Shown: positions 11,629 through 20,597 of the stretch, one piece after another | Position numbering within the stretch: the stretch's first letter is position 1 | Layout of the letters: each line of letters begins with the position of its first letter | Assembly (NCBI GenBank): GCA_025357055.1 | Contig: JANXPZ010000216.1 | Span: forward strand, 1-38,506 | DNA from: Candidatus Eiseniibacteriota bacterium | GTDB taxonomy: Bacteria > Eisenbacteria > RBG-16-71-46 | DNA: 38,506 nt | Reading direction: 5' to 3' | Program-made: the position numbers and the translations under genes | The notes under the pieces: generated by a model | Databases searched by the model: none | Told to the model about the DNA's origin: nothing | What the model saw: the letters and a program-made list of their open reading frames with translations, nothing else

Positions 11629-13098
11629 TCAGCGACCGATCTGCCAGTCGATGACGCGTTCGATGGCCCGTGAGCAGACCGGGCAGAAGCGCTCGGGGTT
11701 GCGGGTGAACATGATGCAGTCGGTCGAGGAGCGGTAGAGCCCCTTCGCGCGGTAGCCGGCCCCTTCGAAGGCGCCGACCTTCCCGCCGTGTTCCTGCCCG
11801 GCCAGGAAGGGCCTGCCCCACGCCAGCTCCTCGCGGAACAGCGAGTCCATCCGGGCCTCGGGTGCGTGGCTGGCGCGCAGTGCGCGGCGGCGAGCCTGGA
11901 TGCCGGCCGAGAACTTCTCGTACTCGTCCTTGCCCCACGGGGTCGGCAGCGGGGTCTTCGCGTCCACCAGGTCCTTCCACTTGAGCGCGGCCGGATCCAG
12001 CAGAGCGGTGATGTTCGGCTCCCAGGGCTCGACGATCGGCGCGGTGGTGCCGTAGGCCACGTCGCTGGTGTAGTACTCGTCGGCCAGTGCGGCGAAGTGG
12101 TGCCCGAACTCGTGCACGAAGACGTAGGGCGTCGAGCCGCTCCTCGTCGAGGAGGTGGCCATCAGGTTGTAGATCCCGCCGCCGCCGTACTTCTCGCCGT
12201 TGACCAGGATCTCGACGACCTCGTAGGGGGCCTGGGCCGCCACCTCGCGCAGGGCCGCGTTGTCGCAGGTCAGCACGTAGCGCTCCGAGCCAAAGATGTC
12301 GTAGGAGGCGCCGAGTGCGCTGCGGCGGTACACGCCGTCGCTCGGCCGGGAAACGCCCGAGTCCTCGGAGGGCGTGTCGATGGCCCGGACGTTGAAGTCC
12401 TTCCGTCGCTCCCGGAAGGGCGGCGTCGAGAACAGCACCTCGACCAGGCGCCGCGCATCCTCGTGGAAGGCCGGCAGCTGCCCGGCGGTGTAGCCGTCGC
12501 CCAGGATCAGCAGGTCGATCTTGGCCTCGGGCGGCCCGTTCTCGAAGACCGTCCAGACCTTGCCGCGAGTGCCGATCGCCTCGCGGCGGATGTCCTGCGC
12601 GGCTGGATCCACCAGAAATGACGATATTTCGTGAAAAGCGTTGTCCGGGGAGCGCTTCAGCAGGCAGACCTGGACCGGGCGGCGCGGGAACGGGAAACGC
12701 ACCGACTCGTGGAACGAGCGGCGCACCGAGCGCGCTTCATCGGTCGTCTCCCACTCGCCGTAGATGCTGGCGAAGCCCTGCGCGTAGAGCACCAGCTGGG
12801 TGGCGCGGTCGCGCACCTCGACCCGGTAGGGCCCGAGGTCGAGCGGATCGACCAGGTTGACCCTGCTGCCCGGCCACGGTCCTTCGCGCCGCAGGCCGTC
12901 GAGGGCGATCGCCTCTTCCTGCGCCGTGCCAACGTGGTCGTAGTCGAGGCGCAGGGTCGCGCCGTCCGACCACGCGTCGAAGGCGGCCACCCCCTGCGGC
13001 GCCGCGGCCGCCGCGACCTGCGGGGCGGCATGAAGCGTCGTCGGAGCCAGCAGGATGCCCGCCAGGGCGAAGCAGGACCACAGGTTCGCACGTGTCAT
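11629..13098 (-). CDS. Secreted M64 (IgA-peptidase-like) metallopeptidase
   Basis: The 489-residue protein has a signal peptide (LWSCFALAGILLAPTTLHAA, cleavage about residue 25). The zinc motif HEFGHHFAALADEY starts at His329, giving HExxH plus a downstream acidic residue as in family M64. LLILGDGYTAGQ (197-208), the ArgAlaIleAspThrProSerGluAspSerG block (238-248) and GGGIYNLMA (306-314) are typical of this family. A C-terminal CPVC pair lies at the end (FCPVCSRAIE). The N-terminal 25-170 is a beta-rich pro or accessory domain. GGAGG lies six bases before ATG 13098; GTG at 13101 is equivalent. Family members are secreted or periplasmic zinc peptidases; a specific substrate, including IgA, is not implied here. 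Confidence 0.88.
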   Translation of the reverse strand: MTRANLWSCFALAGILLAPTTLHAAPQVAAAAAPQGVAAFDAWSDGATLRLDYDHVGTAQEEAIALDGLRREGPWPGSRVNLVDPLDLGPYRVEVRDRATQLVLYAQGFASIYGEWETTDEARSVRRSFHESVRFPFPRRPVQVCLLKRSPDNAFHEISSFLVDPAAQDIRREAIGTRGKVWTVFENGPPEAKIDLLILGDGYTAGQLPAFHEDARRLVEVLFSTPPFRERRKDFNVRAIDTPSEDSGVSRPSDGVYRRSALGASYDIFGSERYVLTCDNAALREVAAQAPYEVVEILVNGEKYGGGGIYNLMATSSTRSGSTPYVFVHEFGHHFAALADEYYTSDVAYGTTAPIVEPWEPNITALLDPAALKWKDLVDAKTPLPTPWGKDEYEKFSAGIQARRRALRASHAPEARMDSLFREELAWGRPFLAGQEHGGKVGAFEGAGYRAKGLYRSSTDCIMFTRNPERFCPVCSRAIERVIDWQIGR

Positions 13099-13134
13099 CA
13101 CAGACCTCCCAGGATCGCGGCGCGAGGCCGCGGG

Positions 13135-15798: not shown

Positions 15799-16109
15799 CC
15801 GAAGCCACGCTGATCCTGTACTCGATCTACATCTTCATGCTCGCGGTGTTCGTGGGCTTCGAGGTCATCTCGAAGGTGCCGGTGCAGCTGCACACGCCGC
15901 TCATGTCGGGCACCAACGCCATCCACGGCATCGTCATGCTGGGCGGCATGCTGGTGCTCGCCAAGGCGCCGCCCGACCAGCAGCTGCTGGTGTGGCTCGG
16001 CTTCGCCGCCGTGGTGCTGGGCGCGATGAACCTGTTCGGCGGGTTCGTGGTGACCGACCGCATGCTCGAGATGTTCAAGACCAAGAAGTCCGCGGGGAGG
16101 AAGTCATGA
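15795..16109 (+). CDS. pntAB: NAD(P) transhydrogenase subunit alpha part 2
   Basis: The 104-residue membrane subunit has three predicted helices: LILYSIYIFMLAVFVGFEVI (about 5-24), HGIVMLGGMLVLA (44-56) and LVWLGFAAVVLGAMNLFGG (64-82). LHTPLMSGTNAIHG (32-45) is the conserved segment of this subunit near the proton channel. The C-terminus has the motif FVVTDRMLEMFK. In many bacteria this part is fused to the NAD-binding domain; here it is a separate polypeptide, as in Rhodospirillum rubrum. Four-base ATGA overlaps on both sides indicate translational coupling with pntAA and pntB. Confidence 0.95.
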   Translation: MTEATLILYSIYIFMLAVFVGFEVISKVPVQLHTPLMSGTNAIHGIVMLGGMLVLAKAPPDQQLLVWLGFAAVVLGAMNLFGGFVVTDRMLEMFKTKKSAGRKS

Positions 16110-17527
16110 ATCCGAAACTCCTCTCCGACGTCGCCTATCTCAGCTCGGCGATCCTCTTCATCATCGGACTGAAGTTCCTCAGCCATCCCAAGCGCGCGCG
16201 GCGCGGCAACCAGATGGCCGCGATCGGCATGCTGTTCGCCATCGTCGCCTCGTTCATCTTCATCTGGGGCGGCGGCCTGCTGCAGCCCGGCTCCAACGCC
16301 GGCGTGCTCATCATCGTCGGCATCCTGGTGGGCGGCCTGGCCGGCACGATCGGCGCACGCTACGTGGCGATGACCGACATGCCCCAGATGGTCGCGCTGC
16401 TCAACGGCTGCGGCGGCGGCGCAGCGGCGCTCATCTCGACCGTCGAGTTCGCCAACTTCGCGGCGGGCCGGGGCGAGAGCGACCCGCTCGCCTTCGGGGC
16501 CACGTTGTTCGGCGCCGTGATCGGCTCGCTCTCGTTCTGGGGCTCGCTGATGGCGTTCGGCAAGCTCAGCGGCTTCATGGAGCGCGCCATCACCTCGGCG
16601 TTCCAGAAGTTCCTCACCGTGGCGGTCTTCCTCGCCCTGATCGCGACCATCGTCTGGATCGGCATGGGCGCGGGCATGACCGCCTTCTACGCCCTGCTCG
16701 GCGTCTCGCTGCTGTTCTCGCTCCTGATGGTCATCCCCATCGGCGGCGCCGACATGCCGGTGGTCATCTCGCTGCTGAACTCGTGCACCGGCCTCGCGGT
16801 GGCGGCGACCGGCTTCGCGCTGCGGGAACCCGCGTTGATCATCAGCGGTACGCTGGTGGGAGCGTCGGGGACGCTGCTCACGCTGCTCATGTGCAAGGCC
16901 ATGAACCGCTCCATCACCAACGTGCTCTTCGCCGGCGTCGGCGCAGGCCCGGTGGCGACCCCGGGCGCGGCGGGTGCGAGCGGTCCGGCCAAGACCGCGC
17001 GCGAGATCTCGGCCGACGACCTGGCCATGCTGCTGGCCAACATCCAGACGCTGATCGTCATCCCGGGCTACGGCATGGCGGTGGCGCAGGCGCAACACGT
17101 CACGCGCGAGCTGGCGGACATCCTGACGGCGAAGGGCGTGGACGTGAAATACGCGGTGCACCCGGTGGCCGGCCGCATGCCCGGGCACATGAACGTGCTG
17201 CTCGCCGAGGCCAACGTGCCCTACGAACAACTCTTCGACCTCGAACAGATCAACCCCGAGTTCGAGCGGTGCGACGTCGCACTGGTGATCGGCGCCAACG
17301 ACGTGGTGAACCCGTGCGCGCGCTACGACAAGTCCAGCCCGATCTACGGCATGCCCATCCTGGATGCCGACAAGGCCAAGAACATCATCGTGGTGAAGCG
17401 CAGCCTCAAGCCCGGGTTCGCCGGCATCGACAACGAGATCTACTTCAATCCGAAGACCTACATGTTCTTCGGCGACGCCAAGAACGCCATCCAGAAACTG
17501 GTGACGGCGGTGAAAGCGGCCGAATAG
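16106..17527 (+). CDS. pntB: NAD(P) transhydrogenase subunit beta
   Basis: The 473-residue subunit has about nine membrane helices in the first 300 residues, including LLNGCGGGAAALISTVEF and PVVISLLNSCTGLAVAATGFAL. A cytoplasmic NADP(H)-binding domain (III) follows: VIPGYGMAVAQAQHVTREL, then YAVHPVAGRMPGHMNVLLAE and VALVIGANDVVNPCARYD, and finally VVKRSLKPGFAGIDNEIYF. These are the diagnostic domain III blocks. It starts at ATG 16106 within the pntAB stop (ATGA). About 30 bp after its stop comes a strong hairpin (17559-17584) that probably ends the operon. It provides NADPH at the membrane at the cost of proton motive force. Confidence 0.96.
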   Translation: MNPKLLSDVAYLSSAILFIIGLKFLSHPKRARRGNQMAAIGMLFAIVASFIFIWGGGLLQPGSNAGVLIIVGILVGGLAGTIGARYVAMTDMPQMVALLNGCGGGAAALISTVEFANFAAGRGESDPLAFGATLFGAVIGSLSFWGSLMAFGKLSGFMERAITSAFQKFLTVAVFLALIATIVWIGMGAGMTAFYALLGVSLLFSLLMVIPIGGADMPVVISLLNSCTGLAVAATGFALREPALIISGTLVGASGTLLTLLMCKAMNRSITNVLFAGVGAGPVATPGAAGASGPAKTAREISADDLAMLLANIQTLIVIPGYGMAVAQAQHVTRELADILTAKGVDVKYAVHPVAGRMPGHMNVLLAEANVPYEQLFDLEQINPEFERCDVALVIGANDVVNPCARYDKSSPIYGMPILDADKAKNIIVVKRSLKPGFAGIDNEIYFNPKTYMFFGDAKNAIQKLVTAVKAAE

Positions 17528-17558: not shown

Positions 17559-17584
17559 ACGGGCGGGACGCGAGTCCCGCCCGT
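17559..17584 (+). terminator. Hairpin after pntB, probable terminator
   Basis: ACGGGCGGGAC and GTCCCGCCCGT form an 11-bp perfect GC-rich stem around a GCGA loop, 31 bp beyond the pntB stop. The following bases (TCCGCG) lack a T-run, so termination may need help or the element may only stabilise the transcript end. Confidence 0.55.
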
Positions 17585-17639
17585 TCCGCGTTCCGGCCCC
17601 CCCCCGACGGTCCAGGCCTGCTCCACGCAAGCGCAGTGG

Positions 17640-17657
17640 GCTCCACGATCGTGGAGC
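17640..17657. promoter_or_regulatory. 18-bp perfect palindrome, candidate activator (UAS) site
   Basis: GCTCCACGATCGTGGAGC is an 18-bp perfect palindrome. A lone half-site GCTCCACG also occurs at 17620-17627. Its centre lies about 126 bp upstream of the -24 box of the sigma-54 promoter at 17774, the usual distance for an enhancer-binding activator. It could alternatively be a hairpin of the pntB 3' region or part of a repeated element. No T-run follows. Confidence 0.5.
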
Positions 17658-17773
17658 AGATGGCGCCCGACGGCCACGCACCGCGTGGCGGTGACGATCC
17701 CGGCCCGGGCGTCCAGCGTTGCAGCCGTGCGGCTTCCGACCCCGATCCCGTGAGCGTGCGGCGGGCGCCCCGA

Positions 17774-17788
17774 TGGCATGCCGGTTGC
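17774..17788 (+). promoter_or_regulatory. Sigma-54-type -24/-12 promoter upstream of the glycosyltransferase
   Basis: TGGCATGCCGGTTGC matches the sigma-54 consensus (TGGCAC-N5-TTGC): GG at 17775-17776 and GC at 17787-17788, 12 bp apart as required. The predicted transcription start is near 17800, which leaves a leader of about 32 bp before ATG 17832. Only the -24 base T replaces the consensus C. In a genome this GC-rich, chance matches are not negligible, but the position is right and an upstream palindrome is present. Confidence 0.6.
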
Positions 17789-17831
17789 GGTTCCCGTGAG
17801 CGGACTGCACTTCGACACGGAGGCTGGAGCC

Positions 17832-18977
17832 ATGAGAATCGGGGTCGTCTCCCAGGCGTACTACCCGCGCTACGGCGGGATCACCGAGCACGTCCACCAC
17901 ACCGCGGTCGAGCTGCGCCGGCGCGGCCACGAAGTCACGATCATCACCAGCCGCTTCCGCGACAGCCTCGAGACCAACCACTCCCAGGGTGTCGAGCGCG
18001 TGGGCTACAACCTGCTGGTGCCCTTCAACCGCGCGTTCGTGGACCTCACCATCGGCCTGACGCTGCGCCAGCAGTTGCGACGGCTGTTCCGCGCCCACGA
18101 CTTCGAAGTGCTCCACACCCACTGCCCGAACGCCCCGAGCCTGCCCATCCTCGCCGTTCAGGAGGCGACCTGCGCACAGGTGGGGACGTTCCACGCCATG
18201 GCCGGGCGGGGGCTCCTGCAGGACGCCTTCCAGCGTTACCTGGCCGCGACCGTGAGCCGGCTCGACGCGCGGATCGCGGTGTCCGCGACTGCCGAGGCCT
18301 CGACCAGGCTCTATTACCCGGGGCACTACCACGTGATCCCGAACGGCGTGGACGTGGAGCGCTTCCATCCAGACGTCGAGCCGCTCGGCCGGTGGAGCGA
18401 CCCAGGGCGTGTCAACCTCCTGTTCGTAGGCCGGCTCGACCCGCGCAAAGGTCTCCAGGTCCTGCTCGGCGCGATGCCGGAGGTCGTGGAGCGCACCCGC
18501 GGCCGCGCGCGACTGCTGATCGTCGGTGACTCCTACCTCCGCCCGCGGTTCGAGGCGCAGGTCCCTTCCGCGATGCGCGCGTTCGTGCACTTCGCCGGAC
18601 ACGTGCCGAGTGGCGACCTGCCGCGCTGGTACGCGACCGGCGACATCTTCGTGTCTCCGGCCTCCGGCAACGAGAGCTTCGGCATCGTGCTGCTCGAGGC
18701 GATGGCGGCCGGACGCGCGGTGGTGGCCTCGGACATCCCCGGCTACCGCTCGGTGGTGAATCCGGACGAGGACGGCGTGTTGTTCGAGCCCGGCAACGTG
18801 CCGGCGCTGGCCCGCACGCTCGCCGCCCTGGTGGACGACCCGGCGCGCCGCGCCGCGCTGGCCGGGCGCGGTCGCGCGCGAGCACTGCAGTTCGCCTGGC
18901 CGAAGGTCACGGAGCAGATCGAGGCGCTGTACCGGGAGGTGGTCGGCCGGCGCAGCGAGGTCACCGAAACGGTCTGA
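17832..18977 (+). CDS. GT4-family glycosyltransferase
   Basis: The 381-residue GT-B glycosyltransferase belongs to the phosphatidylinositol-mannosyltransferase/MshA-like GT4 group. It opens MRIGVVSQAYYPRYGGITEHVHHTAVELRRRGHEV, with the G-G-x-x-x-H acceptor-side loop. NLLFVGRLDPRKGLQVLLGA begins the donor domain, and NESFGIVLLEAMAAGRAVVASDIPGYRSVV is the E-x7-E nucleotide-sugar motif. The likely reaction is transfer of a hexose from a nucleotide sugar to a lipid or glycan acceptor, acting at the cytoplasmic membrane face. GGAGG lies about nine bases before ATG 17832; an in-frame ATG at 17778 overlaps the candidate promoter and is less likely. A sigma-54-type promoter precedes it, and a GH4-type glycosidase follows 108 bp later. 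The acceptor is unknown. Confidence 0.92.
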   Translation: MRIGVVSQAYYPRYGGITEHVHHTAVELRRRGHEVTIITSRFRDSLETNHSQGVERVGYNLLVPFNRAFVDLTIGLTLRQQLRRLFRAHDFEVLHTHCPNAPSLPILAVQEATCAQVGTFHAMAGRGLLQDAFQRYLAATVSRLDARIAVSATAEASTRLYYPGHYHVIPNGVDVERFHPDVEPLGRWSDPGRVNLLFVGRLDPRKGLQVLLGAMPEVVERTRGRARLLIVGDSYLRPRFEAQVPSAMRAFVHFAGHVPSGDLPRWYATGDIFVSPASGNESFGIVLLEAMAAGRAVVASDIPGYRSVVNPDEDGVLFEPGNVPALARTLAALVDDPARRAALAGRGRARALQFAWPKVTEQIEALYREVVGRRSEVTETV

Positions 18978-19085: not shown

Positions 19086-20597
19086 ATGAAACCTCTCAAG
19101 ATCGTCATCCTGGGCGCCGGCAGCGCCAGCTTCGCCCTCAACTCGCTCGCCACCCTGTTGCGGGAGCCCGCGCTGCGGGGCAGCACGCTCGCCCTGGTGG
19201 ACGTGGACCCGGACGCTCTTCGGCTGGTGCGGCGCCTCGCCGAACGGCTCGACCTGGAATGGAACGCCCGCTTCCACATCGAGGTCCACGACGACCGCTG
19301 CGCCGTCCTCGAGGACGCCGACTTCGTCGTCTGCGCGATCGAGCGCGTGCCGCGAGAGAAGCTCTGGCGTCACGACTGGGAGGTCCCGCTGCGTCACGGT
19401 CTGCGTCAGCCGCTCGCGGAGAACGGAGGGCCCGGGGGCTTCGCCCATGCCGCGCGCAACATCCCGCCGGTCATCGACATCGCCCGGGACATGGAGCGCC
19501 TCTGCCCGGACGCGGTGCTCATCATGCTCAGCAATCCCCTGCCGCGTCTCTGTCGCGCGGTGACGAAGTACACCTCGATCCGGGTCGTCGGGCTCTGTCA
19601 CCAGCTCAGCTTCGGCTACGCGCTGGCTGGCATATTGCTGTTCGACCGGACCGGCGTGCCCGTCCCTCCCGGGATCCTGCTGCCCAACATCCCGTTGTTC
19701 CCCTACGGGCGCGCATTCTGGGCGACCGTGGGTGAGTACGTGACCCGGGTCAGCGAGGCGATCGACATCCAGGCGGCCGGGCTCAATCATTTCACCTGGA
19801 TGCTGGACGTCCGGGACAGGCGGACGGGCCAGGATCTCTATCCCCTGCTGCGCAGTCGATTCCTGGCCGTCCCCGGCGGGCGCGAGCGCCTCTCGCGCGA
19901 CCTGCTGCGCATCACCGGATACCTGCCCGCCACCGGCGACACGCACCTGAGCGAGTACCTGCCGTACACCCACAATCCCGGGACCAGGCCCTGGGAGCGG
20001 TACCACCTGCGGCCCTACGACTGGGCGCGCGCGGAGCGTGGCCGCGGTGAGCTCCGGCACGAGCTCACGGGCACGATCGAGGGGGGCAGTTCGGCGTTGC
20101 GGCAGCTTCGCGACCTGTCCAGCGAGGGCATCTGTGAGGTCGTGCTGGGACTGAGCGGTCGTGGCGATGTCTGCCGCCCCGCGGCCAACGTGCCGAATCA
20201 CGGCGCGATCCCGAACCTGCCCCCGGACACCATCGTCGAGGTCCCGGTGAGGTTCACGCGCGCGGGCGCACTACCAGCGCGCATCACCGAACTGCCTCCG
20301 ATGATCTCCGAGCTGTGTCGACGCGAGGCCCAGCTCGTCGAGTACGTCGTGGATGCGGCCGTCCAGGGGAGCCGCGAGCTTGCCCTGCAGGCACTCTGCC
20401 TCGACCCGACCATGGACGACCTCGACGTGGCGCGGGCGGTGCTCGACGACTGCCTCGAGATCCACCGGGACCACCTGCCGCAGTTCCACGGCAAGTGGTC
20501 GAACGAGCGTCGCTGTGCCAGGCCCGCGTCGCTGCGTGCGGCGGGCCGCGGGTCGGACCGGGAACTATCGGCCGCGGGAACCCATGGCGCGGCGTAG
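19086..20597 (+). CDS. GH4-family glycosidase (alpha-galactosidase/glucosidase-like)
   Basis: The 503-residue protein fits the NAD- and divalent-metal-dependent GH4 glycosidases. The NAD loop is ILGAGSASFALNSLA (8-22, G-A-G-S). SNPLPRL is at 149-155. CHQ at 171-173 supplies the metal-binding Cys/His, and AAGLNHFTW (231-239) supplies the second His. Between these last two motifs lies an unusually long, Pro-rich segment (about 62 residues). The C-terminal region contains VANVPNHGAIPNLPP-like family sequence (AANVPNHGAIPNLP, 361-374). The tail after about residue 475 is Ala/Arg-rich and runs over the stop of the minus-strand SDR gene by 33 bp. GH4 enzymes usually act on alpha- or beta-linked sugars; the substrate is unassigned. 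It sits 108 bp after a glycosyltransferase, and the two may act on the same glycan. Confidence 0.8.
   Translation: MKPLKIVILGAGSASFALNSLATLLREPALRGSTLALVDVDPDALRLVRRLAERLDLEWNARFHIEVHDDRCAVLEDADFVVCAIERVPREKLWRHDWEVPLRHGLRQPLAENGGPGGFAHAARNIPPVIDIARDMERLCPDAVLIMLSNPLPRLCRAVTKYTSIRVVGLCHQLSFGYALAGILLFDRTGVPVPPGILLPNIPLFPYGRAFWATVGEYVTRVSEAIDIQAAGLNHFTWMLDVRDRRTGQDLYPLLRSRFLAVPGGRERLSRDLLRITGYLPATGDTHLSEYLPYTHNPGTRPWERYHLRPYDWARAERGRGELRHELTGTIEGGSSALRQLRDLSSEGICEVVLGLSGRGDVCRPAANVPNHGAIPNLPPDTIVEVPVRFTRAGALPARITELPPMISELCRREAQLVEYVVDAAVQGSRELALQALCLDPTMDDLDVARAVLDDCLEIHRDHLPQFHGKWSNERRCARPASLRAAGRGSDRELSAAGTHGAA

Follow-up and report, generated by a model that had tools for sequence, protein, structure and literature searches.

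In mycobacteria, pimA comes after the gene of an acyltransferase (PatA, Rv2611c), and the geometry of NtrC-type upstream activating sites is typified by glnA. PatA is the mycobacterial acyltransferase treated in PMC4792965. Genes of the cell exterior are governed by sigma-54 (Francke et al. 2011, PMC3162934), and the known targets of this kind concern envelope polysaccharide, phospholipid, lipid A and pili (PMC3162934, PMC4641369). In the sigma-54 regulome of Desulfovibrio vulgaris the −24/−12 element reads tGGcacg/tTGCt, and one upstream site of an enhancer-binding protein (EBP) in Desulfovibrio has been described with three half-sites (PMC4641369).

The locus analyzed here lies in a 38.5-kb stretch of DNA (38,506 nucleotides, hereafter the window) from a Candidatus Eiseniibacteriota bacterium. 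Its features are as follows.

16109–17527, plus strand: pntB, NAD(P) transhydrogenase beta subunit (Pfam PF02233, E 6.6e-172)
17559–17584, plus strand: terminator-like hairpin ACGGGCGGGAC-GCGA-GTCCCGCCCGT behind pntB, with perfect 11-bp arms
17620–17627, plus strand: half-site GCTCCACG, which precedes the first arm of the palindrome by 20 bp, or two helical turns
17640–17657, no strand: perfect 18-bp palindrome GCTCCACGATCGTGGAGC, candidate activator site, centered at about −151 from the expected start
17673–17689, no strand: second inverted repeat GCCACGC-ACC-GCGTGGC, centered at about −119, which may be due to chance
17774–17789, plus strand: sigma-54-type −24/−12 element TGGCAT-GCCGG-TTGCG, with a predicted transcription start near 17800
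17832–18977, plus strand: PimA-like GT4 glycosyltransferase, a stand-alone extra copy (Pfam, PDB PimA, family tree)
19086–20597, plus strand: GH4 glycosidase (Pfam PF02056/PF11975, PDB)

Like the cell-exterior sigma-54 promoters described previously (PMC3162934, PMC4641369), this locus has a −24/−12 element, in a genome whose EBPs mostly carry the GAFTGA motif, and its palindrome and extra half-site recall the three half-sites of the Desulfovibrio site. It differs from those systems in its Eisenbacteria host and in its stand-alone, extra PimA-like gene. The case agrees with what is known of sigma-54 as a regulator of the cell exterior (PMC3162934); a search of one literature collection found no paper joining Eisenbacteria and sigma-54.

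The original prediction placed TGGCATGCCGGTTGC at 17774–17788, with exact GG/GC spacing and 44 bp before a start codon, and rechecking confirms these coordinates exactly. The element satisfies the strict TGGCAY-N5-TTGC motif and the fixed spacing of GG at −24 and GC at −12, and the base that follows TTGC is G, versus the usual A or T (TTGCW). No other place on either strand of the window scores equally well or better, and when the intergenic region was dinucleotide-shuffled 2000 times, only one shuffle attained its score. The likely glycosyltransferase start, ATG at 17832, is preceded by GGAGG at 17819–17823, eight bases ahead, and the N-terminal residues of the relatives are similar. A scan for sigma-70 promoters gives a single weak match, which overlaps the start codon. 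The pntB gene upstream is probably a separate transcription unit. The hairpin at 17559–17584 folds in the centroid structure of the RNA and has no T run; a terminator scan gave no T-run terminator. Neither the pntB-glycosyltransferase arrangement nor a similar intergenic region behind pntB is present in any relative, and therefore the promoter of the window cannot be footprinted.

The protein encoded at 17832 is a GT4 enzyme that most resembles mycobacterial PimA, over its full length (E 1.5e-48 and 1.8e-48 over residues 1–374 in the PDB search), and is presumably a lipid glycosyltransferase. The earlier proposal of a sigma-54-controlled surface-glycan gene is supported as to the promoter, which is backed by rpoN, EBPs, position and positive controls; the gene itself is not clearly one for surface glycan, as the enzyme points to lipid glycosylation. 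In nearly all family members the glycosyltransferase gene lies directly 3′ of a lipid-A-type acyltransferase (PF03279), an operon that also occurs in this genome on contig C214. Because C214 carries this regular operon, the copy in the window is regarded as extra and stand-alone, and it probably sits behind a sigma-54 promoter of its own. The acyltransferase-glycosyltransferase operons of the family, that on C214 included, have no sigma-54 site upstream. As with mycobacterial pimA, the acyltransferase directly precedes the gene in the relatives and on C214. Unlike pimA, the window copy is without an acyltransferase and belongs to a distant phylum. In the family tree the C214 copy clusters with G003 and G004 but the window copy with G006 and G002, a pattern that could stem from gene transfer, from an old duplication or from a binning error.

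The machinery for sigma-54 transcription is present. The genome encodes one RpoN (contig C45, E 7e-63) with an intact RpoN box, ARRTVAKYR, which disposes of the objection that rpoN might be lacking, and 38 of 39 relatives have RpoN as well. Twelve strong full-domain EBP matches are accompanied by two that are cut by contig ends; GAFTGA or a near variant occurs in 11 of these 14 loci, and two of the remaining three are the ones cut short. Elsewhere in the genome, a strict site 14 bp past an upstream stop codon lies ahead of a GAF-GGDEF gene (locus L081, contig C150, position 10889), and the same arrangement recurs before a GAF-GGDEF gene of another genus (L099, genome G008, contig C174, position 1030). 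This conservation across two genera suggests sigma-54 control of c-di-GMP signaling through the diguanylate cyclase. Type IV pilin, pilA, is a classic sigma-54 target, and in family members G010 and G007 the motif lies about 70 bp upstream of it (L098 and L100).

The number of motifs is less telling. Six strict matches occur genome-wide versus five for the reversed motif, which is not above chance; within the family the strict motif is likewise not enriched over its reversed control, unlike in the other families of the class (G021–G026), where it is clearly commoner. A looser motif, TGGCRYNNNNNYTGCW, gave 84 matches versus 103 for its control, mostly TGGCGC, and was set aside as uninformative. 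By a rough estimate, chance alone would place about 0.4 such sites per genome at most 150 bp from a start codon. This estimate and the strict counts in genome and family speak for the view that the match at 17774 arose by chance in a GC-rich intergenic region, in which case the gene would be read from some other promoter that escaped recognition or by transcription running on from pntAB. With the strict count at control level, support for the promoter comes from position rather than number. All six strict sites seem to fall in gaps or shortly ahead of genes, whereas the five reversed controls are all coding, against a non-coding background of 19% in the stretches examined. Gap fractions rest on these stretches and on a GC-frame gene caller of simple design, which begins each ORF at the earliest start codon. 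It puts three of the six sites in gaps; the other three land inside ORFs because of over-long calls, and upon hand inspection they read as gaps or leaders. Of these three, the window gene likely starts about 44 bp and the lipoprotein on contig C117 about 60 bp past the site, and an upstream ORF extension is also unlikely at the C160 site, though less certainly than for the window and C117. One of the six, C117:27358, is directed away from the adjoining genes and has no obvious target. The cross-genus conservation of one other strict site and the rarity of the score among shuffles also speak against a chance match, and the strong hairpin between pntB and the element against read-through, so that we consider this explanation unlikely. 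Together, RpoN and the EBPs, the positions of the sites, the conserved site at the GGDEF gene and the motif before pilA make a sigma-54 promoter credible, and 17774–17789 is likely to be a genuine one that drives the PimA-like glycosyltransferase.

The role of the palindrome is more evenly balanced. Its coordinates, and those of the extra half-site at 17620, had been given correctly, and it is the only perfect, spacer-free palindrome in the window with arms of at least 9. Four such palindromes occur in 246 kb of the genome, about one per 60 kb, and hence some 0.002 would be expected in the 120-bp upstream zone, a figure somewhat weaker than it looks because the palindrome was chosen post hoc. 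Centered at about −151, the inverted repeat at 17640–17657 falls in the range of 80–200 bp upstream of the start that is expected of an EBP site. A palindrome of roughly 17–18 bp near −150, a half-site two turns away and an inverted repeat near −119, 32.5 bp or three helical turns from center to center, resemble the NtrC type of site, although the sequence departs from the consensus for NtrC, the core spacing is not the same in both repeats and the genome holds a single copy. The promoter could equally be real while the palindrome serves a repressor or other regulator, or forms a second hairpin at the 3′ end of the pnt operon. Its RNA indeed folds as a second hairpin behind that of pnt, and the EBP search of the genome found no EBP gene on the contig of the window. 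Genome-wide there is no other copy with up to two mismatches, though EBPs often have several targets; as a regulon marker the palindrome was rejected, the copies with three mismatches being about as numerous as expected by chance. The expectation that the same pair of motifs would recur is not borne out, since none of the remaining five strict sites has the palindrome ahead of it. Against these points stand the NtrC-type placement and the low chance expectation, and we judge such a non-EBP role to be nearly an even prospect. The proposed enhancer geometry survives in its placement but gains nothing from a second genomic copy, a neighboring activator gene or a comparable locus in the relatives; the palindrome is a plausible candidate for the upstream activating site of an EBP, at just under even confidence. 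Finally, the contig might be misbinned, with glycosyltransferase and promoter stemming from another Eisenbacteria species. The grouping of the two copies with different genomes in the tree and a reported contamination of 1.42% would allow this, but that contamination is low and gene transfer or an old duplication would account for the tree just as well, which leaves misbinning improbable. As RpoN is almost universal among the relatives, the promoter reading would hold even then.

The motif and its placement, RpoN, the EBPs and the use of the motif elsewhere in the genome and family are the observations from which a model can be drawn. RpoN-RNA polymerase would bind the −24/−12 element as a closed complex and start near 17800 only when an upstream-bound EBP, an AAA+ protein with GAFTGA, remodels that complex. 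We infer promoter activity of this kind, an activator and a condition to which it responds; the activator would most likely bind the cluster of palindrome and half-site at 17620–17689 (about −180 to −110). Under some condition, this would raise the dosage of a membrane-lipid glycosyltransferase above what the C214 acyltransferase-glycosyltransferase operon supplies. GH4 may be included as the second gene of the transcript; the 108-bp gap between the two genes has no evident terminator. Among 38 relatives GH4 finds only two weak partial matches, and the gene was perhaps acquired by transfer. Elsewhere in the window, the minus strand encodes an M64 (IgA-peptidase family) metallopeptidase with its N-terminal domain (11629–13101).

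A second link of sigma-54 to this gene type appears to be provided by the sister families f5 and f8. In each of the nine loci whose upstream sequence is long enough (L137–L142, L144, L147 and L153), a near-consensus site lies 1.36–1.52 kb before the homologous glycosyltransferase. First comes a divergently oriented gene of roughly 137 codons (MASQKLVRCEIRRP...), then the site and a short gene of some 65 codons (EVYCRRDNRVYAVCPH...), and after a gap of some 180 nt the acyltransferase and the glycosyltransferase; the divergent and short genes have no Pfam match. TGGCA and TGCA are the same in all seven f5 genomes compared, and the flanks diverge, as in a footprint. This conserved site is a more useful lead than the window.

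It is conceivable, if doubtful, that Eisenbacteria place membrane-lipid glycosylation by an acyltransferase and a PimA-like transferase under sigma-54, with a conserved promoter ahead of the whole gene neighborhood in the sister families and, in this genome, an additional gene copy that has a promoter of its own and a dedicated activator site. If true, this would mean regulated glycolipid remodeling of the envelope in Eisenbacteria. The probable promoter of the window gene already carries the rule of sigma-54 control over the cell exterior into an uncultured phylum, with a PimA-like lipid glycosyltransferase as a specific, testable target.
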